A stretch of DNA of 64,000 bases from Candidatus Leucobacter sulfamidivorax (GTDB taxonomy: Bacteria > Actinomycetota > Actinomycetes > Actinomycetales > Microbacteriaceae), in NCBI GenBank assembly GCA_016771945.1, contig QZLF01000002.1, positions 1-64,000 on the forward strand. The letters run 5' to 3'. This document shows, piece by piece, positions 21,972 through 33,798 of the stretch; position 1 is the first letter of the stretch; the number at the start of each line of letters is the position of its first letter. A program made the position numbers and the translations under genes. The notes below the pieces were generated by a model. It saw nothing but the letters and a program-made list of their open reading frames with translations. It did no database searches and was not told the origin of the DNA.

Positions 21972-24900
21972 CTACCTCAACCCCAGCCCGCGAGCTTCGA
22001 GCGTAGCAACGGGATTCGGGGCGCGGCGCGACCGGCCCAGATTCTCGATCTCAAGTCGAGCCGCTTCGGCTCGGACTCGGTCGATCTTCTGGACGGTCCC
22101 GTCGGATGGTGCACCGAGCGCGGAGTTGGCAGTGATCTGATAGCGGTCTCGGTAGGCGGCGACCACGAACGCTGCTCGACGCCAGACGGTGGCGCGCTGC
22201 GGGTCCGCGGGCTCGCCGCCAAGAGCCGCAATCCACGGCGCCGAGTCAGCGAGGGCCGCAACGAGCACCGCGTCCGCTCGCGCTTCGATCAGGTGACGGC
22301 GCTCCGCCAGAGCCTTTTCCATCTCTAGGCTCATAGCGCCAGTTGCCTCGGGGATGAGCCCGGCGATCAGCCTGGGCACCGACTGCCTACGGGCCGAGCG
22401 CGCTGGCCTCGCAGTAGCCACAGCGACTCGATGGCGGAGCACTGCGGCAATATCATCGGCATCGCCGAAACCACGAGCGTGGACGAGTCGAGGAAGCAGG
22501 ACCTCCAGGTCGTGATGGTTGGCTTCGGCTCGGCGCAGTTCAGCGGTCAACGGTCCAAAAGCATCCGAGTCGATGACTTCGTCAGCCTGTTCTGCGTTGA
22601 GGCCCGATGTCCGCACCAGGGATGCCCAACGGTCGCGTTGCGCGGCAGCAGCGATCGTTTCGTACTCGGCAGCAAGCTGCGCGATCGTGCCCCAGGATTC
22701 TTGCTCAGCGGCCATCGTTTCGTGTGCGGAGAGTTCGGCGCCGACGTGCTGGAGCACGCCGTAGAGCACGCTGCGCCCGGTGGCTTCACTGTTGTCCCCC
22801 GGATGTGGTCCCGCGTGAGACGAATCCGGCTTGTCGACTGCGACATAAGCAACGTTGGCGGTACGGCCCCTTGTCATGGCCACGTAGAACGTCTCGCGAG
22901 TCATCGCCGAATCGACGAGCACGTGCGCTGTATCGGTGGTGAGGCCTTGCGCACGGAAGGAAGTGACGGCGTAGCCAAGTTCGACATGCTCGGCGACGTA
23001 GGCCGCTGGCAGGAGGACAGCGGATCCCCGGGAGCGTCCTTCTCGTCGAACGAGCATTGAGCCGTCGCTTCGAACATCGGCGACCTTCCAACGGTCACCG
23101 TTGCGCACCCAGCTCCGCCCGGCCCGCAAGCGTCGGTCGTTACGTCGAGTGATCACGATGTCGCCGGACGCTGCGTGGGTGCCATCGTGCAGCTCTGACT
23201 CTCGCGCACCTCGGACGGTGCCGTCGAGGATCAGGTCGGTTCGCGCACGGTTATTGAGCGCGGTGACGGATTCGTTCGAGTCAGCGACGAGCACCGCCGC
23301 ACGCCCCGCGATCAGGTCGGCGCGCCACGCGGCGTAGGCGGCATCGACCATAGCTTCGGTATCGCCTTCAAAGATGCGCCCATGCTCGGCGTAGGTGTCG
23401 ATGACTTCTGTGTGGCCGTGGCGGAGATCGAGGGAGGCGCGTTTCTCCCACTCGTGTGTGAAGCGGTGAACATCGACGAGTTCGGCGACGTCATCGCGGT
23501 CGTGCGCGAGGAGCCCGAACGCTCCACCCGCGTCAACCGCTTGCAGCTGCGCGTAGTCTCCGACGAGCAGCACCTTTGCTCCCGCCGTGGCGGCAAGCTG
23601 GGTGATGCGGTCAAGTGAGAGTGTTCCTGCAAGCGAGGCCTCGTCGATGATGACGAGCTGCCCAGCCTGGAACTTCTCCCCCGTTTGGAGATGGGTCTGC
23701 CACCACTTCGCTGTGTTTTCCGTTGCGATCCCAAGGTCGTCGGCGAGTACCTGGGCCGCGCTTGAAGATGGTGCGAGCCCGACGACTGATCCAGGGCCGT
23801 GCTCTTTCTCCCACGCTCGTCGTAGTGCGCTCATTGCGGTTGTCTTTCCCGCACCCGCAGGGCCGACCAGCAGGTCGATGACCCTCCCAGAGACCGCAAT
23901 AGCTATCAGCGCGGATGCTTGGTCCGCAGCAAGCATCCGACCCTCACGGTCAGACTTCTGCACGATTCGTTCGACCGTCGCCAGCGAGACGGTCGGCGCG
24001 GTCGTTGAGCGCGAGAGCTGCAGCAGGCGGCCTTCAGCTTCGAGCAGTTCACCCGACGAGAACACGGTGGAGTTTTTCGGTCGGAACACCGACGACTCAT
24101 CGCTCCTGCGGAAGACGGCGGGGCTCGATGCCAGTTCGGGCGGCGTGAGCCTGAGCGAAACGGCCTCGGCAGCATCCACGACCAATCCGACGATGGCCTC
24201 GCGGTCTCGCGTGCTCGCGAACCGATACCCCATCGTCTGGCGCGCAGCCTCAGCCGTGAGGTTCCAACGGCGCCACGTTGAACGTTTCTCTCCAACCACA
24301 GCGACAACACTCTGCCCGAGCCTCTGGACGACATCGAGCGGAACGTCATCGGCCCACAGGAGCAGCGGATCCTCGTTCGTGGTGACTCGTCGAGCCCAGC
24401 TCGTGGCATCCGCACCGAGGATCGTTCCAGCTCGCTCTCGCCATTGAGTGGTGAGTTCGGCAAGCGAATGGATCTGCTTTTCCGGCCTGGTGGCGAGCGT
24501 CGCTTGCGCCCGCAGTTTGATGATCGTCGTGCTTGATGGTTGCCTGCCGTGCTTCGCCACGTATTCAGCGATGAGACGGTCCTTTTCCTCGTCGATGTGC
24601 CGCGATCGCGAGGAGAACTCAGCGACGAGTTCTGGCGGGACTTGCGCGATCGTCCATGCCGGGTTGCGGTCGCGTCCCCTGTCGCGGGCTTCCCATGCGA
24701 CGCCGAAGAGACGGGTCAGGTGATCGGCGATCACGGCTTCGTGAAGCTCCGAGAGCGCCACCGTCGCCGCATGCATGGGGCGGCTATCCAGGCTGCGCCA
24801 TTTGTTGTCGAGCACGGTCTGGACCTTGTTGCTGATGACGACGTGCGTGTGGAGGTGAGGATCGCCCGCGCGTGAGTCGTAGTGGTCGTACGCTGTCGCG

Positions 24901-25523
24901 ATCAGCCCGCGCACATCGACCTGCGCAACGGCACCATCCCCGGGGGTTGCACCGGCGCGCGTGGCTGCAACCTCACGCTCCATGAACGCAACCACCTCCG
25001 CAACCGCAGCATGATGAGCATCAACGATGAGCGATTGCGTTCCCGCGTCGGCGACCGCCCACAACACCGACGCTGACTTCGGAATCGAGAACGTGTAGTC
25101 ATACCCCGCGACCGCCCGACGTGTAGCACGTTCCGCCTCTTCGGTCTCGATCGCCGCGACTGCTCGACCGCGAGCAGTCGCACTCAGACCGGGGTCCAGC
25201 GTGGCCACACGATCGGCGACGCGTTCGGCTTTCGCCTTGTACTGCGGGTAGGCGCGGCCCAACGGTGCGCCGGTGAGCGGATCTCGACCCATGCCGATCA
25301 GCAGTTGAAGTTGCGCCTCGGTGACCTCGTCCCCTTCTTCGAGCTGCCCGCTTCCCAGCGCCGCGAGTCCGCTACCCATCCAGCGTCCGGGCGGAGTTCC
25401 GTCGGCGTTGTAGTAGCGCGTCAGCGGTGTTGAAAGGTCGCGGTCTCCGTCCCCCGCGGCGACGGTGCGCAGCAGGTACTTGTAGCCGTCGCCCGCCGAC
25501 ATCAACCGCATCGACACCGTCAC
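21972..25523 (-). CDS. MobF-family conjugative relaxase/helicase (TraA/TrwC-like)
   Basis: A 1183-residue relaxase that nicks oriT, stays covalently bound to the transferred strand and unwinds DNA. The N-terminal TrwC relaxase domain has a Tyr pair (TRYY, about 36-38) and the metal-binding three-His motif DPHLHTHV (H223, H225, H227). A RecD-like helicase follows with Walker A GPAGAGKT (about 553-560), Walker B IIDEAS and a late motif FRAQGLTTDTAHVLVD. The C-terminal region is helical. The start is GTG at 25523, with GGAGGGAAGGTG upstream; an ATG at 25511 is an alternative. It is separated from the rest of the transfer genes by more than 18 kb of cargo. Confidence 0.93.
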   Translation of the reverse strand: MTVSMRLMSAGDGYKYLLRTVAAGDGDRDLSTPLTRYYNADGTPPGRWMGSGLAALGSGQLEEGDEVTEAQLQLLIGMGRDPLTGAPLGRAYPQYKAKAERVADRVATLDPGLSATARGRAVAAIETEEAERATRRAVAGYDYTFSIPKSASVLWAVADAGTQSLIVDAHHAAVAEVVAFMEREVAATRAGATPGDGAVAQVDVRGLIATAYDHYDSRAGDPHLHTHVVISNKVQTVLDNKWRSLDSRPMHAATVALSELHEAVIADHLTRLFGVAWEARDRGRDRNPAWTIAQVPPELVAEFSSRSRHIDEEKDRLIAEYVAKHGRQPSSTTIIKLRAQATLATRPEKQIHSLAELTTQWRERAGTILGADATSWARRVTTNEDPLLLWADDVPLDVVQRLGQSVVAVVGEKRSTWRRWNLTAEAARQTMGYRFASTRDREAIVGLVVDAAEAVSLRLTPPELASSPAVFRRSDESSVFRPKNSTVFSSGELLEAEGRLLQLSRSTTAPTVSLATVERIVQKSDREGRMLAADQASALIAIAVSGRVIDLLVGPAGAGKTTAMSALRRAWEKEHGPGSVVGLAPSSSAAQVLADDLGIATENTAKWWQTHLQTGEKFQAGQLVIIDEASLAGTLSLDRITQLAATAGAKVLLVGDYAQLQAVDAGGAFGLLAHDRDDVAELVDVHRFTHEWEKRASLDLRHGHTEVIDTYAEHGRIFEGDTEAMVDAAYAAWRADLIAGRAAVLVADSNESVTALNNRARTDLILDGTVRGARESELHDGTHAASGDIVITRRNDRRLRAGRSWVRNGDRWKVADVRSDGSMLVRREGRSRGSAVLLPAAYVAEHVELGYAVTSFRAQGLTTDTAHVLVDSAMTRETFYVAMTRGRTANVAYVAVDKPDSSHAGPHPGDNSEATGRSVLYGVLQHVGAELSAHETMAAEQESWGTIAQLAAEYETIAAAAQRDRWASLVRTSGLNAEQADEVIDSDAFGPLTAELRRAEANHHDLEVLLPRLVHARGFGDADDIAAVLRHRVAVATARPARSARRQSVPRLIAGLIPEATGAMSLEMEKALAERRHLIEARADAVLVAALADSAPWIAALGGEPADPQRATVWRRAAFVVAAYRDRYQITANSALGAPSDGTVQKIDRVRAEAARLEIENLGRSRRAPNPVATLEARGLGLR

Positions 25524-25852
25524 CGCTGCTCACCTTCCCTCCATCAAGGAGGAGGTGAACAAGGTGCTTCAAGACTCAGTCGTGAGGAGTCGCGACCTCG
25601 ATCTGCCAGACGCGTGGGCATCTGGAGACGGAAGCTCGCCATGGACCAGATCATGGTCCGGAACGCCCCGGCCGACGTAACCCGACGACTCACGGGATAT
25701 GGCCACTGAAGCCATAGGGTGCATCGGCGAATCTAATAGCGCCGAGTTCGACGGCGCGGCACTGTAGCAGTGTCAGTGGCCAACGGTAGCGTTAGACACG
25801 CACCCAATTCCAACTTTAAACGCGCTTGCAAGCGAAGGAGATCCAGCGAAGC
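25524..25852. other. 329-bp gene-free region upstream of relaxase; candidate oriT and divergent promoters
   Basis: The region separates the minus-strand relaxase gene from the plus-strand restriction-modification operon and is dense in inverted repeats. They are: CACCTTCCCTCC/GGAGGAGGTG (25531-25557), GGACCA-GATCA-TGGTCC (25643-25659), GGCCACTGA (25701-25709) with its inverse TCAGTGGCC (25773-25781), GCGCCG/CGGCGC (25739-25757), CACTG-TAG-CAGTG (25760-25772) and CGCTTGCAAGCG (25823-25834). MobF relaxases usually nick a hairpin-flanked site near their own gene, so oriT is likely here. The nick site itself cannot be assigned by eye. Confidence 0.45.
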
Positions 25853-27739
25853 ATGAGCAAGTCCCTTCTGGAGCAATTACCCGGCATTGTCGCGGCGGGC
25901 AAGCGTCAAGCGGCACAGATACTGGAGCAGCTGGAGGGACGTAACCGCGTTAGCCTTCAGACGCGCGAACTGGTCATCCCGTCGAAGGATCGTGGTGGCT
26001 TCAACTTTTGGGGAAACGACGGCGAGGGCATCGCCGAGATGCCGAACCGCCTGATCTACGGTGACAACCTGCTGGCGATGGCCGCATTGCTCGCGGGCGA
26101 TGAGGATACGCCGAGCCTGCGCGGCAAGATCGATCTGATATACATCGATCCGCCGTTCGATTCGAAGGCGGACTATCGAACGAAGATCAAGCTTCCGGGA
26201 ACCACGATTGATCAGAAGCCGACCGTACTTGAGCAATTCGCTTACTCCGACACGTGGTCGGACGGCACAGCTTCCTATCTCGCAATGATCATGCCGCGCT
26301 TGATTCTGATGCGGGAGCTTCTTTCGGAGAACGGCTCGATCTACGTTCACCTGGACTGGCACGTGGGCCACTACGTCAAGTTGCTTCTTGATGAGGCGTT
26401 TGGCAAACAGAACTTGCGCAACGAGATTGTCTGGGCGTATCACGGGCCAGGAAGCCCAGGGATGCGACAGTACAACCGCAAGCACGACACCGTCTTTTGG
26501 TATTCAAAGTCAGACAACTGGATCTTCAATGACGATCAGATCCGCGAGGCGCATAGTGAGAAGACCAAGGGGAACTTCAAGACCGGTCTCGCAGGCTCCG
26601 GGTTTATCACCGACGATTATGCGCTCGCCGAAGGAAAGATCCCCGAAGACTGGTGGGTGATGGCGATCGCTGGGCGTTACCCGGTAGATGGCAAAAAACG
26701 AGTCGGCTATGCCACCGAAAAGCCATGGCCGCTCATCGAACGAATCATAAAAGGATCCTCCTCGGAGGGCGCTATAGTTGCAGACTTCTTCGGAGGATCA
26801 GGTGTCTTCGCAGCTGTAGCCGAGTCGCTTGGACGAAGGGGGGTAGCGACTGACCTTGGCAAGCCCTCCACAATGGTGATGCGCAAGCGACTCATCGACG
26901 TCGACGCAAAGCCTTTTCTCTATCAGGCCATTGGCGACTATCAGGTGGAGCAGGCACGCTCGACTTTGGGCCGCTCGTTCCGAGTTGGAGATCTCGCCAG
27001 GGTCGTCCTCGACCTTTATGGCGCGTTGCCGCTGCCTCCCGAGGAGAACGTCAACGGCAGCCTTGGGCGGCTACCGGGTACCCGCACGCTCGTGTATGCA
27101 GACAGCCCGTCGCGCCTCACGACCATCTCGACGCTCAAGCGTGCGCAAGGATACCGCGAAGTCAAGATGGGTGGCTTCGACAAGGTTGTCGTACTCGGTT
27201 GGAACTTTTCCGCCGGCATCGGCCAGGACATCAGCGACCTGAACGACCCGAACCTTGAGGTACTGGTGATCCCACCTGACCTGCTCGACCGACTCAAGAA
27301 GAAGGGGGCGGACAAGCTGGCGTCCGAGGTGCGCTTCTCCAGCCTCCAGTATCTCCAGGCAGATGTCACCGCGCGCACGAGCAACGGCGAGCGCGAGACA
27401 CTCACGGTGAACCTGCAGAACTATGTACTGCTCTCACCCGAGGCGATCAACCTCGACCAGGCCAACCGGGCAAAGCTCCAGGAAGTCATGAACACGGAGC
27501 CGCTGGCGCTCGTTGAGTATTGGGCAGTCGATCCCGCCTACGACGGCGAGGTCTTCCGTTCCGTCTGGCAGGACTACCGAGGCAACACCGACAACGACAG
27601 CGACGAGTTGCGTGTCGTCACAACGGCCACGTTGGATCTCCCTCGCCTCAACAGCGCACGTACAGTTTGCGTACGGGCAGTGGATGTCTTCGGCTTTGAA
27701 TCTGAAGTCGTTATCTCTGGTGTGGAGGTAGATTCGTGA
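25853..27739 (+). CDS. type III restriction-modification system, DNA methyltransferase (Mod)
   Basis: Methyltransferase of 628 residues that protects host DNA by adenine methylation and is needed for recognition by the whole complex. Motif IV DPPF is at 99-102 ([13 protein letters not shown]) and the SAM-binding motif FFGGSG lies at about 313, so IV precedes I: the beta class expected for type III Mod. The central region between them would be the target-recognition domain. The ATG at 25853 is chosen (AAGGAG upstream); an upstream TTG at 25826 would add nine residues. The stop overlaps the Res start (GTGA). Confidence 0.89.
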
Positions 27740-30666
27740 GCGGCTTCGCGGACTTCCCTTTGGCTCGAGGACTGTCAGCAGGCGTTGATCCGTTCATCCC
27801 GGGCATCGTTGACGGCTCAGGTTCGGAGATACTCGAGCGAGTCACACCGGTTACCGCCGAGCTATTGCGCTACTGGTTCCAGCAGGACTATTGCGAACTG
27901 CGGGAACTGAACTTCCACGCTGGGCAACGCGCGGCCATCTTGAACATCATCTATGCTCACGAGGTGCTCGGTACGACGCGCCTGCGCGACCTCTACGAGG
28001 CCGTCGCGCCGGAGGCGATGCTTGAAGGCGGCGTCCTGGGCGAAGTCACCCGGCAGCGCCACGACTTTCCGAAGTACGCAGCGAAGATGGCCACCGGCAC
28101 CGGCAAGACGTGGGTGCTCAACGCTTTGCTCGTCTGGCAGTACCTGAACAAGCTAGCTGACCCGGCGGACCCGCGCTTCTCCAGCAACTTCCTGCTCGTC
28201 GCACCTGGCCTCATCGTATACGACCGCCTCCTGGACTCCTTCATGGGTAAGGAGCATGCGGGCGAGCGTGACTTCACCAGCAGCGACATCTACCGCCAGC
28301 AGGGACTGTTCGTACCGGACACCTACCGTTCGCAAGTCTTCTCGTTCTTGCAGTCATCCGTCGTCACCAAGGCTGAGATCGGTCGCAAGGTCACCGGCTC
28401 AGGCATGATTGCGATCACCAACTGGCATCTACTGGCTGGCAAAGAGGACCCTGACTTCCTCGAAGACGAGGCGGAGGTCGAGGCACCGGGCGCTGAGATC
28501 GATCAGAAGGCGGCTATCGAGAGCTTCTTCCCACTTACACCGGGCACGAGCGCCGGGAATGCGCTGGACGCGCTGGATCGACGCTTCCTGCGAGGAGGAC
28601 CGCTCCAGGCGCTGAAGGACTTACCTGACCTGGTCGTGTTCAATGACGAGGCACACCACATCCATGAAGTCAAGAAGGCCGACGAGGTCACTGACGTGGA
28701 GTGGCAAAAGAGTCTGAGCGAGATCGCTTCGACCAAGGGGCGACGCTTCACGCAAATCGACTTTTCAGCGACGCCGTACAACGAGGTTGGATCGGGGCGC
28801 TCGAAGGGCAAGGCATACTTCCCGCACATTGTGGTCGACTTCGACCTCAAGTCTGCGATGCGCTCTGGTCTCGTGAAGTCACTCGCACTCGATAAGCGCA
28901 AAGAGATCGCCGCGCTGCCACTGGACTTCAAGGCAGAACGTGACGAGCAAAAGCGCGTCACAGGCCTCTCAAATGGGCAGCGCGTCATGCTGCAAGCCGG
29001 TCTTAAGAAACTCCAGATCCTCGAAGAGCAGTTCACAGAGGTAGGCCCCGATAAACACCCGAAGCTCCTCGTCGTCTGCGAGGACACGAATGTCACCCCG
29101 CATGTTGTCGAGTACTTGCAGAGCACCGGGCTGTCTGAGGATGACATCCTGCGCGTCGACTCAGGCCGCAAGGCTGAACTTGGACCGAAAGACTGGGAAC
29201 CGATCCGCGAGAAGCTGTTTGACATAGACCGGCATAAGCAGCCGAAGGTCATCGTCTCGGTACTGATGCTTCGTGAGGGTTTCGACGTCAGCAACATCGC
29301 GGTCATCGTGCCGCTGCGATCTTCCCAAGCATCGATCCTGCTAGAGCAGACGATCGGACGTGGTCTCCGATTGATGTGGCGGGGTGATCCGTCGATCGAT
29401 GAGCTGAAGGCTGAAACGCGGGAGCGGATTAGCAAAGGGCTTGAGCCAACCAACTACTTCGACGTGCTGTTCATCGTTGAGCATCCGGCGTTCAGTGAGT
29501 TCTACGAGCAGCTGCTAGGGAAGGACGGTCTCCTGGGAGAGGCCGGTGATGACGCGGACAGCACCGGCGCAACCGGCGATCTGGAGCATGTTGACCTGCG
29601 GCCCGGCTATCAGGCGTATGACTTTGAGATCCCGATCATTCTGCGCGATGCGGACGAAGAGCTTCGTCAGCCGAGCGTCGACCCGCTCGCGCTAACACCC
29701 TGCCCGTATCCGCTTGACATGATGCTCAAGGTGATCGGCACGGGTGACCGGTTCGTCTCCCATGACGCGCAGACGGGCACGCAGTACGGCGACTACCGCG
29801 TTGACGGTGGTGTCCTGACAGCGAGTGGCTACAACGATTACCTCTCGCGCATGACCACGCGCATCACCGAGGCGCTCGGTCGCACCATGACCAAGAGTCA
29901 GAGCAAGTACAACGAGAATGCCAAGTTCCCGATCTTGCAGGCGTACCGCCCGCTCTTGACCGGCTGGTTGGATACCTACATCCGGCACAGACTCTTCCGT
30001 CAGGACTTTGATCCGCTCGATGGCGAAAACTGGCGCGTACTGCTGCTCGACGATGTCGCTCACAGCATCGCCGGGACGTTCGCAACAAAACTGGTCGAGT
30101 TGCAGGAGAACCAGGTCGTAACCTCCGCCGAGGTGCAGCACCGCTTCTTGTCGGAAGTCATGACGATCCCGGTGCGCGGTAGCACGGCGGAAGAGGTCAA
30201 GAAGTGCATCTACCCGAAGCTGCCGATCCCCTCCCAGGGCGGCGGTCTTGAACGACGCTTCATTCGATGGGCAGACAAGGATTCAGGGATCGAGGCCCTC
30301 GCGAAGGTACACGAGTACCGACACGACTTCCTGCGTCGGCCGTATCTGAAGGCGGACGGTATGCCCGCACAGTACTCACCGGACTTTCTGATCCGCACGC
30401 CCGAGACCATCTTTGTCGTCGAGACCAAAGCGCAATCGGCCCTCAGCGACGAGAACGTGCAACGCAAGAAGAAGGCTGCCCTGGCCTGGTGCGAGCAGAT
30501 CAACGAACTTCCCGAGGAAGAGCGAGACAGTCGTCGATGGGACTATGTACTTCTCGGAGAGTCGGTGATTGTCGAGTGGGAAAAGAAGAATGCCACCGTG
30601 ACTGACCTCCTTCACTACGCACGGCTACGCCGCGTGTCCACGGCGAAGCAGGAGCGGCTGTTGTGA
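27736..30666 (+). CDS. type III restriction-modification system, restriction subunit (Res)
   Basis: A 976-residue helicase-nuclease. The SF2 helicase core has Walker A ATGTGKT (about 120), DEAHH (304-308), SATPYN and the motif VI-like QTIGRGLR. Near the C-terminus a PD-(D/E)xK nuclease is visible: [18 protein letters not shown], with D883, E896 and K898. It uses ATP to track along DNA between two inversely oriented sites before cutting. The GTG start overlaps the mod stop, and its own stop overlaps the next gene start, giving a tightly coupled three-gene operon. All motifs look intact. Confidence 0.91.
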
Positions 30667-33266
30667 GCGACGATGTGACTGAGACCAGCATCGACTCAAC
30701 CCAAGAGCCCAAGTTGGTTGACCCGCGCGTATTATTGGCCGACTGGGCGAACATCAGCGACGAATGGGTGCGTCTACTGGTTGCCGAGGTGCTCGTGAGC
30801 GGGCGCACTGTCGGCGCATCCACCGTCGAAAAGGCGTACAAGCTATTCCGGCAGGAGAAGGCACTCGATAAGCGCGAACTGCCGACCGTGCCAAAGCTCG
30901 ATGTCGAGGCGCGACAGGACGAGTCAGCACCACCGCTGTCACTGATACGGCTCTCGGAGGTTCGTGGGGTCAATGCACTCGTGCCCGGCGCGATCATCGA
31001 GCCACACGAGGGTCTGACGATCCTTTACGGGGAGAACGGCACCGGCAAGACCGGCTACTCTCGCGTGTTCAAGGCTCTGGCAAATAGCCGCACGGCTGAC
31101 ACGATTCTCGGTGATATCGAAGCTGACACTGCCGAAGCGCAAACTGCCAAGCTTGAGTTCAAGCTCGGTGATGACGAGCAGACGCTGTCCTGGAGTGGGG
31201 AGCGCGGAGTATCGCCCTTCACCCGGATGTCGATCTTCGATAGCCCTGCTGTGAGTACGCACGTCGACGATGACCTTGACTACGTCTACACACCGGTATC
31301 ACTCGCGCTCTTCAACCACGTTAGTGCCGCAATCCAAGCCGTGACGAGTGAAATCGATACCGCAATCACCGCGCTTGGCACGGATAGTTCCGGCCTGCTG
31401 ACCAGGTTCCAGCGTGGGTCGTCCATCTATCCGCTGATCGAGACGCTCGGTGCGTCGACCGGCCTGGCCGAGTTGAAGGCCAAGGCCGCTACCGGCGAAA
31501 CCGTCGAGGCTGATCTCGACTCACTTACGCAGGCGGTGGCTGCGCTGCGGGCCAATACTCTCAGTGCACAGATCACCGTGCTTAAGGCGGAGCAACGTGT
31601 CTTGGCACAGGCAGCAACTGCAGCCGATGCGCTCGTGTCGTTCGACTCCAAGGCTTACAACGATGCACTAACGAAGCGAGCGCAGCTTGCGACCGACTAC
31701 GAGACCTTCCGCATAGAGCTCTTCGCCGCTGCCGACCTGCCCGCCGATCCTGACGACACATGGAGCGACTTCATTGAAGCTGGCGAAACGTACCGTCAGC
31801 ACCTCACAGAGCTGGGTGCGCATGACTCGGATCGGTGCTTATATTGCCGACAGTCGCTGCTGGACCCCGCACGGGATCTGCTCTCCAGGTATTCGACCTA
31901 CCTCGAAGACAAGATCTCGGCTGACATCCGTGACACCGACAGCTTGCTTGCAAGGTTCAAGCAGGAAGCCGCAGGTATTGAAGGTAAGGATTGCGCTCAG
32001 TTTGTCGACGAGTATCAGGCCGAAGAGGAGCAGCCTTCCTACTTCGCGCAGGTCGAGGCCATCGAGGGGGCAAGGAGCGCGCTCGCATCGGCAGTAGCAG
32101 ACAGCAAGCCCGCCAGCCTTACTATCGCCGACATCCTCACGCAGCTGAAGACCGATGTCGATGCCGCACTAAAGACTGCCGAAGAAGGCATCACGACGCT
32201 AGAGGCCCAACAGCAGAACAGGACGCAGCTACTCGCCGAGAAGCAGACCGAACTGGTGGAGCTGAAGGACGCGGTCGAACTTGGCACGTCCTGGCCACTG
32301 ATCGAAGGGCAAGTCAGGAGCGCCAAGGAGGCTGATCAGCTCAAAACGCTCAAGCGTCCGCTGTCATCGCTGACCAGAGCGGTTACCGCACTCGCCAAGA
32401 CCACCAGCGACCAGCTGATCAACCAGAGCTTCGACGCCCTCTTCCTTGAGGAGTGCGACGCGCTCAGGGCGCCAACTCTGAAACTGCAGTTCGTTGGACG
32501 GGAGGGTCGAGCGCATCGTCGCAAAGTGCTGAGCGGCAAGCACAAGCCGTCAAGAGTACTCTCCGAGGGAGAACAGAAGGTACTTGCGCTCGCCGACTTC
32601 CTGGCTGAGGCTCGCTTGGCGGGAATTACCGCCCCCGTCATCTTCGACGACCCCGTCTCCAGCCTCGATCACCGTCGGATCAACGAGGTCGCGCAGCGCA
32701 TCGCCGCGCTGGCGGATAACAACCAGGTCATCGTGTTCACGCACGACATCTTGTTCGCCACGACACTCCTTAGCCTCTTTGAGAAGTCCAAGCGCTGCGT
32801 CTACTTTCAGATCACGGACGAGAACGGCAAGGGGCAGGTTACCCGTGCCAGCGGGCCGAGGATCGACTCGCTGAGTGCAATCAAGAAGCGTATAACTGGC
32901 ACAATCCAGGCCGCGAAGTCTCAAGAGGGCGAAGTTCGCGATGCTCTCGTGCGCGTGGCATATAGCCACGTCCGTGCATGGTGTGAAGTCTTCACCGAGG
33001 AGGAGCTGCTGAAGGGCGTCACCAAGCGCTACCGTGCGAACGTCCAGATGACCACACTGCCGAACATCGACGGCACCAGACTCAATGAGATCGGTCCAAA
33101 GGTAACGGAGATCTTCGAGGTGGCATGCCGCCACATCGACGGGCACTCGCAACCACTCGTGACGCTGGGTGTCAGCCCAACGCTCACGGGGCTGGAGCAG
33201 CATTGGGCAGAGTTGCAGGACCTCAAGAGATTGAACGATGGCGCCCTCCCCCTAACGTCGAACTGA
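30663..33266 (+). CDS. SMC-like AAA ATPase with zinc hook; RloC/PrrC-like candidate anticodon nuclease
   Basis: An 867-residue ABC-type ATPase: Walker A GENGTGKT (about 123-130), two coiled-coil stretches flanking a CxxC zinc hook (C392-LY-C395), ABC signature SEGEQ (about 634) and Walker B VIFDDPVSSLD (about 658-669), then a His in VFTHD. This AAA_13-like layout is that of RloC and PrrC, host-suicide tRNA nucleases linked to restriction systems. In the C-terminal domain R771-x3-E775 is followed by H824/H828, resembling the Arg-Glu-His triad of PrrC; an RVAYSH (RxxxxH) at 764-769 also recalls HEPN nucleases. It overlaps res by four bases. The ATPase call is firm; the nuclease call is inferred. 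Confidence 0.8.
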   Translation: MSDDVTETSIDSTQEPKLVDPRVLLADWANISDEWVRLLVAEVLVSGRTVGASTVEKAYKLFRQEKALDKRELPTVPKLDVEARQDESAPPLSLIRLSEVRGVNALVPGAIIEPHEGLTILYGENGTGKTGYSRVFKALANSRTADTILGDIEADTAEAQTAKLEFKLGDDEQTLSWSGERGVSPFTRMSIFDSPAVSTHVDDDLDYVYTPVSLALFNHVSAAIQAVTSEIDTAITALGTDSSGLLTRFQRGSSIYPLIETLGASTGLAELKAKAATGETVEADLDSLTQAVAALRANTLSAQITVLKAEQRVLAQAATAADALVSFDSKAYNDALTKRAQLATDYETFRIELFAAADLPADPDDTWSDFIEAGETYRQHLTELGAHDSDRCLYCRQSLLDPARDLLSRYSTYLEDKISADIRDTDSLLARFKQEAAGIEGKDCAQFVDEYQAEEEQPSYFAQVEAIEGARSALASAVADSKPASLTIADILTQLKTDVDAALKTAEEGITTLEAQQQNRTQLLAEKQTELVELKDAVELGTSWPLIEGQVRSAKEADQLKTLKRPLSSLTRAVTALAKTTSDQLINQSFDALFLEECDALRAPTLKLQFVGREGRAHRRKVLSGKHKPSRVLSEGEQKVLALADFLAEARLAGITAPVIFDDPVSSLDHRRINEVAQRIAALADNNQVIVFTHDILFATTLLSLFEKSKRCVYFQITDENGKGQVTRASGPRIDSLSAIKKRITGTIQAAKSQEGEVRDALVRVAYSHVRAWCEVFTEEELLKGVTKRYRANVQMTTLPNIDGTRLNEIGPKVTEIFEVACRHIDGHSQPLVTLGVSPTLTGLEQHWAELQDLKRLNDGALPLTSN

Positions 33267-33303: not shown

Positions 33304-33798
33304 TCACTCGTTGCTATCACTCTTGAACCATGCAGTGACGGTCTCCTTCCAGCGCGTCGCATCTGAGTTCCAAGCCAGCGTGTGCCCTGCATCGAAGGTC
33401 TCCAGCTGAACGAGATCTGGACGCTTCTGCGCGAGCGCCGACGAGGTCTTGATGGGAACTGAATCGTCTTTAGCCCCGTGAAGGATCAGCGTCGGCACAG
33501 AGAGTTCGTCGGCGCGCGCTATCCAATCAGACTCGCTGAACGAGATTCGGCTTGGGAGCCCTAGCCGTCGAGCCAGTGCGCGATTCGTCAGCCACGGGAC
33601 CGCGAGCAGCCCTGCACTGCGTGGGAACCCGGCGCGCTGGCAGTTGGCTTTGATGACCTCGACCCAGTTGAGTACCGGTGAGTCAAGCACGAGCCCTGCT
33701 ACCAGTGGCGCATAGTCTGACCGATGCGCAATCTGCAGTGCAATCGCAGCGCCCATAGACCAACCGAACAGCACGATCCGTTCTGCACCGCGGCGCAC
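33304..33798 (-). pseudogene. alpha/beta hydrolase, C-terminal part (split by IS21 element)
   Basis: Encodes the second half of an alpha/beta hydrolase: nucleophile elbow GWSMGAA, an Asp in HGAKDDSVP and a His in DAGHTLAW, so all catalytic residues are on this fragment. The apparent GTG start lies in the target-site duplication and is accidental. Removing bases 33793-36443 (one duplication copy plus the IS) joins this frame exactly to the fragment at 36438-37091, reading ..YAVRRGAERIVLFGW.. in one frame. The restored protein would have about 378 residues. It is non-functional as it stands unless the IS excises precisely. Confidence 0.9.
33793..33798. repeat. target-site duplication, left copy
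   Basis: GCGCAC here is repeated at the other end of the IS21-family element (36444-36449). A 6-bp duplication is within the range known for IS21. Counting only one copy restores the hydrolase reading frame. Confidence 0.85.

Follow-up and report, generated by a model that had tools for sequence, protein, structure and literature searches.

Gene organization of the operon

The operon described here lies in a 64,000-nt stretch of DNA from Candidatus Leucobacter sulfamidivorax (genome G000); this whole stretch is called the window. Its three genes, mod, res and a gene for an 867-aa ABC ATPase, follow one another in that order on one strand and are joined by two 4-bp overlaps (Table 1). This arrangement, noted in the first-pass annotation, is borne out by the coordinates of the open reading frames (ORFs). 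All three are long same-strand ORFs with whole-length homologues, which rules out chance. Sequence comparisons presented below indicate that the ATPase belongs to a sister branch of canonical RloC proteins and that its operon partner is exchangeable.

The mod and res genes have the composition of a type III restriction-modification (R-M) system. Mod is an amino-methyltransferase of the beta order (DPPF at 108, then FGGSG at 322), and Res combines an SF2 helicase (GTGKT at 121, DEAH, SATP at 344 and QTIGRG at 538) with a C-terminal PD-ExK nuclease assigned by pattern match (PD...ETK at 882). The PADLOC models MTase_III and REase_III match Mod (9.9e-82, residues 61-630) and Res (3.4e-22), respectively, and Res also matches NF046055 at 1.4e-63, which is under that model's cut-off. 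With these motifs in place, both Mod and Res look intact. In type III systems, a Mod2-Res complex cleaves between inversely oriented unmodified sites. The mod ORF starts with ATG at 25853, with AAGGAG at 25835-25840, and an alternative TTG at 25826 is also open. A scan for sigma-70 promoters found 0, compared with 1.8 expected in shuffles.

Table 1. Features of the operon and of its third protein. Positions are those of the window; rows are those of the ATPase alignment described in the text; pLDDT, predicted local distance difference test.
Feature	Position	Strand	Evidence
mod, type III-like N6-adenine DNA methyltransferase	25853..27739	+	N6_N4_Mtase 7.5e-37 (Pfam)
mod/res overlap, 4 bp	27736..27739	+	ORF coordinates
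res, SF2 helicase + PD-ExK nuclease, BPTD_3080-like Res	27736..30666	+	ResIII 2.8e-10 (Pfam)
res/ATPase overlap, 4 bp	30663..30666	+	ORF coordinates
RloC-like ABC ATPase (867 aa, GTG start) with zinc hook + helical C-terminal domain, probably a HEPN RNase	30663..33266	+	AAA_13 2.3e-17 (Pfam); model pLDDT 89
Walker A GENGTGKT, residues 123-130	31029..31052	+	motif; G123, N125, G128, K129 invariant
Zinc hook CLYC, residues 392-395	31836..31847	+	motif; C392, C395 in 83/83 rows
ABC signature LSEGE, residues 633-637	32559..32573	+	motif; S634-E637 invariant
Walker B + D-loop, residues 658-669	32634..32669	+	FDDPVSSLD around 662; D662, D663, P664, S667, D669 invariant
C-terminal helical domain, residues 728-867	32844..33263	+	model pLDDT 90, five helices
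R771-x3-E775, putative catalytic triad	32973..32987	+	83/83 rows
R823-x4-H828; H828 = putative triad histidine, R823 fits HEPN Rx4-6H	33129..33146	+	H828 in 83/83 rows

Motifs of the ATPase and its putative catalytic triad

The Walker A and B motifs, the ABC signature and the CxxC hook that had been recognized in the third protein are all present. Relatives were gathered by patterns in the ATPase motifs, not by the C-terminal domain (77 + 18 loci), and the 84 ORFs that are 840-905 aa long supplied 82 sequences, which were aligned with the window ATPase to give 83 rows, some of them near-copies. Tryptophan 35 (W35) is invariant across this family, and the window ATPase also carries H694. In the predicted model, helices flank the zinc hook on either side, and among PDB structures the full model is best matched by Rad50 and SMC heads. 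Nearly the whole protein is covered by the PADLOC candidate PDC-S06 (model PDLC04888, 393.7 bits, 4.2e-118, residues 24-855). This label has no description in the PADLOC table and is listed as a prediction in one paper. The PADLOC model for PrrC covers just residues 659-716.

The C-terminal domain had been proposed to carry the Arg-Glu-His triad of PrrC and RloC, with H824 and H828 as candidate histidines. R771, E775 and H828 are kept in all 83 rows and, when the domain is aligned alone (82 rows), they are its sole invariant residues. H824 is ruled out as a catalytic residue, being replaced by Y in 52/83 rows, and the histidine to mutate is now settled as H828. With 52 residues between E775 and H828, the window ATPase fits the pattern Arg-X3-Glu-X36-52-His given for RloC in PMC2610378. 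An Arg is placed 5-7 residues ahead of H828 in 52/83 rows. R764-x4-H769, which had been suggested as a HEPN motif, is ruled out as well, with R in 22/83 and H in 10/83 rows. Moreover, HEPN does not constitute an alternative to PrrC and RloC, whose nucleases have themselves been assigned to HEPN (PMC3710099, 2013).

Relationship to canonical RloC and fold of the C-terminal domain

RloC of Geobacillus kaustophilus and Acinetobacter baylyi shares with the window ATPase a split ABC ATPase, a coiled-coil CxxC zinc hook and the order Arg-x3-Glu-x(n)-His. Further likenesses described in PMC2610378 are a length of 658-897 aa, GTG starts in some proteins and the location of a few copies at type I/III R-M loci. 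A second AAA_13 protein, of 781 aa, is encoded in the same genome (G000:C3 ~150.3-152.7 kb; L171:7344-9686, - strand), and no operon partner was seen for it. It carries Walker A at 37, CEFC at 277, R676-x3-E680 and SH723, and it likewise falls under PDC-S06, via other models than the window ATPase. Together with 35 relatives (36 rows), this canonical RloC-like protein stands in for published RloC sequences as the canonical branch, in which the triad is also kept (R in 36/36, E in 34/36 with D in the other 2, and H in 36/36 rows).

The window family aligns with the 36 canonical rows over residues 388-721 with a probability of 99.7 and an E value of 4.7e-27, and the alignment ends before the triad. 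An earlier full-length run against 6 canonical rows (E 2.8e-23) paired R771/E775 with R676/E680. By these profiles, kinship to RloC is demonstrated for the ATPase and the hook, whereas the nuclease domains of the two branches are not joined. Because the ATPase and hook match and the domain alone does not, the profiles indicate that the window ATPase is a sister branch of canonical RloC with a longer N-terminus. Its Walker A begins at residue 123, compared with 37 in the 781-aa protein, and the spacing between the triad E and H is 48-52 residues in the window family versus 36-46 in the canonical branch. A first viral scan that used canonical RloC alone found no relative, and a scan with a 6-row alignment gave 76 loci, of which 32 were examined (L178-L209) and 30 ORFs used.

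Structure prediction, which had been put forward as a check on the C-terminus, yields a helical fold with HEPN entries among its top PDB structure matches, none of them significant. Thus, the predicted fold leans to HEPN. Several observations weigh against a HEPN ribonuclease (RNase) of the RloC kind. The best Foldseek row for the domain is a HEPN-type toxin at E 0.69, and by VIA two metavinculin chains (8.9 and 8.7) outscore the best HEPN entry (8.2). With hhalign, the domain alone matches canonical RloC at E 0.086 (6 rows) and 0.061 (36 rows), neither of which is significant. The residue before the triad His is often Ser in RloC (PMC2610378) and is Ser in 34/36 rows of the canonical branch, but it is Gly in the window ATPase and Ser in only 7/83 rows of its family. 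Finally, no search reveals an RNA target. Three other absences are uninformative: a Pfam scan of the domain alone, with E values up to 10 allowed, gave 0 families, its profile had a single match among PDB sequences (a designed helical repeat, E 3.9), and the best hit in a viral structure library had an E value of 0.55. The triad, the order of the domains and the lean of the predicted fold to HEPN together make it probable that the domain is a nuclease.

Exchange of operon partners

The type III pairing of an RloC-like ATPase is not new. In PMC2610378 (2008), RloC is placed at type I or III loci in 8/72 cases, one copy being associated with ArdC as well as a type III system. PMC3710099 describes RloC proper as unlinked to R-M, and a subset of RloC-like proteins as adjoining R-M genes. 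Type I and III systems carrying HEPN and other toxin-like domains are reported in PMC3506569 (2012). The mod-res-ATPase triplet is named in no title or abstract opening found, most subscription journals being outside the literature searched. The useful addition made here is partner exchange, and because the pairing itself is not new, the interest of the operon is moderate.

The survey comprised 105 loci and left out the window, its own copy (L002), a fragment (L006), short-match loci (L007-L031) and res loci lacking the ATPase. An operon partner was defined as a co-directional ORF of >=150 aa within 120 bp, which lets smaller genes escape, and 16/105 loci lie <=1 kb from a locus end. Neighbours were typed by BLAST to Pfam-typed examples. 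The partner is a type III gene in 9 loci, a type I gene in 5, BrxL in 1 and another or untyped gene in 33 (most of these operons were left untyped), and 57 loci have no partner. In this genome survey, a check that had been proposed for mod-res-ATPase triplets, relatives linked to R-M genes recur. An additional type I case, with the order hsdM-S-R-ATPase, is found in genome G744.

Exchange is evident among the nearest relatives of the window ATPase, which share 72-75% identity with it. In L045 (74%), genes for HsdR of a type I system, a DUF6414 protein and an AAA protein precede the ATPase. L047 (73%) has this DUF6414-AAA pair as well, here behind a type III Res that resembles the window Res at just 42% over 50 residues. 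The DUF6414 and ClpA-like AAA genes ahead of the ATPase are at L045:8078-10001 and L047:8772-10001. In L046, an AAA_21/AAA_15 ATPase precedes, and an operon partner was not found for the close relatives L048 and L063. Thus, comparison of these loci indicates that the partner of the ATPase is exchangeable.

Exchange is also seen from the side of the restriction enzyme. The window Res is 78% identical to the Res of genome G672, which is adjoined by a TrlF ATPase; G672 is absent from the nine genomes of the order with a match to the window ATPase. The same Res type followed by TrlF is found in Novosphingobium and Sphingobium plasmids. TrlF is likewise an ABC-type ATPase in the same slot behind a similar res, but it belongs to a separate protein family (NF045780) and matches anti-phage Ppl less strongly, and the literature search on TrlF found nothing relevant. 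In the Paenarthrobacter, Arthrobacter and Acetobacter plasmids examined, mod-res has no such ATPase adjoining.

A 4-bp overlap of the ATPase gene with the gene upstream recurs in the window, L037, L045, L046, L047, L109 and L132. The overlap is with the R-M gene itself in the window, L109 and L132, and the ATPases of L045 and L047 close an R-M operon. In a quick tree of 97 ATPases with long branches, the type III label requires 4 changes versus type I, at least 3 of them on starred branches. The labels do not cluster beyond shuffles, values as low being reached in 104/500 for type III and 112 for type I.

Two loci place relatives of the ATPase near genes of other kinds. In L129:7980-15066, from a phage collection, a relative lies directly ahead of sbcD and an sbcC-like gene, whose products act on DNA ends. 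In L127:3-15089, a relative lies behind Eco57I, Shedu SduA, PglZ and BrxL, and an sbcC-like gene is located two genes further.

Proposed function and alternative explanations

We favor, with moderate confidence, a model in which the operon encodes a two-layer defense, wherein a type III R-M system is backed by an RloC-like ABC-HEPN ribonuclease that shuts the cell down. Mod and Res would mark the cell's own DNA and cut unmodified incoming DNA. The Rad50-like ATPase with its zinc-hook coiled coil would hold the C-terminal RNase shut, and the most likely trigger would be free DNA ends, arising either from restriction or from the breakdown of host DNA by a phage. Once activated, the RNase might cut tRNA or another RNA and so halt translation, and physical contact with Mod or Res would not be needed. 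Cleavage of tRNA at the anticodon, with removal of the wobble nucleotide, is the activity that characterizes RloC.

The alternative that survives best, although we consider it unlikely, is that two defense cassettes travel together on a conjugative element and are functionally uncoupled. Partnerless relatives are common (57/105), this R-M type is accompanied by TrlF in G672, Sphingobium and Novosphingobium and elsewhere lacks any such neighboring ATPase, and the type I and III labels are unclustered on the ATPase tree. In addition, a TrwC relaxase within five genes in 7/105 loci means that the mobile setting alone could unite the cassettes. Against this stand the recurrent 4-bp overlaps with the upstream gene, and the changes of the type III label on starred branches imply that the pairing arose repeatedly or was exchanged.

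Rather doubtful is a guard arrangement of the PrrC type, in which Mod-Res binds and silences the ATPase and a phage anti-restriction protein that blocks the complex sets it free. PrrC, which is held by the linked type Ic enzyme (PMC3710099, PMC2610378), adjoins the EcoprrI R-M genes and likewise joins an ABC ATPase to an Arg-Glu-His nuclease. PrrC itself is 341-416 aa long and lacks a zinc-hook insert (PMC2610378), whereas the window ATPase has 867 aa, the CxxC and a type III partner. The shared operon with its overlaps and the recurring R-M linkage (type III in 9 operons, type I in 5) would suit a guard. Against it, the 57 surveyed loci without an operon partner, including L048 and L063, mean that silencing by linked R-M cannot be a general mechanism, and the partners that do occur are unrelated Res or HsdR proteins, which makes a single conserved docking face unlikely.

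We consider it improbable that the ATPase assists DNA restriction itself, as a Rad50/SMC-like bridge or loader that aids Res and has a structural, non-nuclease C-terminal domain, for although its head and hook resemble Rad50/SMC and its C-terminal domain has no significant fold match, the sole invariant domain residues (R771, E775 and H828) form an active-site pattern and many relatives have no adjoining R-M gene.

These comparisons and the analogy to RloC favor a self-regulated module, probably one that senses DNA ends, rather than a lock made for a single restriction complex. Since close relatives live without linked R-M genes, the protein must presumably keep itself off, and unrelated partners argue against one docking surface. 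The presence of close relatives beside other R-M types or none points to a switch within the protein. RloC is reported to have such a switch and to be turned on by linear DNA and by inducers of double-strand breaks, also in R-M mutants (PMC3874168). Sensing of DNA ends is suggested by partner exchange taken together with this reported activation and with the sbcD/sbcC context of L129.

A broader and quite tentative proposal is that the slot behind mod-res, type I and BREX genes serves as a socket into which different suicide modules with an end-sensing ABC ATPase can be swapped, either RloC-like ABC-HEPN or TrlF. Such modules might read restriction products as DNA ends instead of recognizing a particular R-M protein, so that one module could guard several unrelated DNA-cutting systems.

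The locus lends itself to a clear-cut test of the way in which a suicide RNase is coupled to restriction. ATPases of 72-75% identity accompany a type I enzyme, two unrelated type III enzymes or no partner at all, and because such natural swaps exist, a partner-bound guard and a DNA-end sensor give opposite, testable predictions.

Frequency and mobile setting

Among 396 genomes of the order, own genome counted, the ATPase has a match in 9 (E 1e-30) and Res in 3 (E 1e-50). At the class level, 121/394 genomes match at E 1e-3, mostly through short matches to the ATPase head. The family PF13166 is found in 7/14 well-known control genomes, in 3 of them over the cut-off. When the DNA of the whole operon was compared with plasmids, 23 records matched and 0 covered 80% of it.

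Positions 1-36443 of the window, up to an IS21 element, are found again in the same genome at 40236-76679 of contig C3, with 99.98% identity (6 mismatches and 1 gap). The operon is hence present twice, by either real duplication or assembly. Window positions 17759-62000 resemble a conjugative element, with a relaxase, a TraG-type coupling protein, a P-type ATPase, an SBF-family transporter and IS21. Between the operon and IS21 lies a short alpha/beta-hydrolase ORF (33304-33798, - strand) that is apparently a fragment. A TrwC relaxase gene is located near the ATPase gene in the window (21972-25523, - strand), and the 7 surveyed loci with a TrwC relaxase within five genes of the ATPase are L049, L050, L053, L065, L066, L071 and L078.

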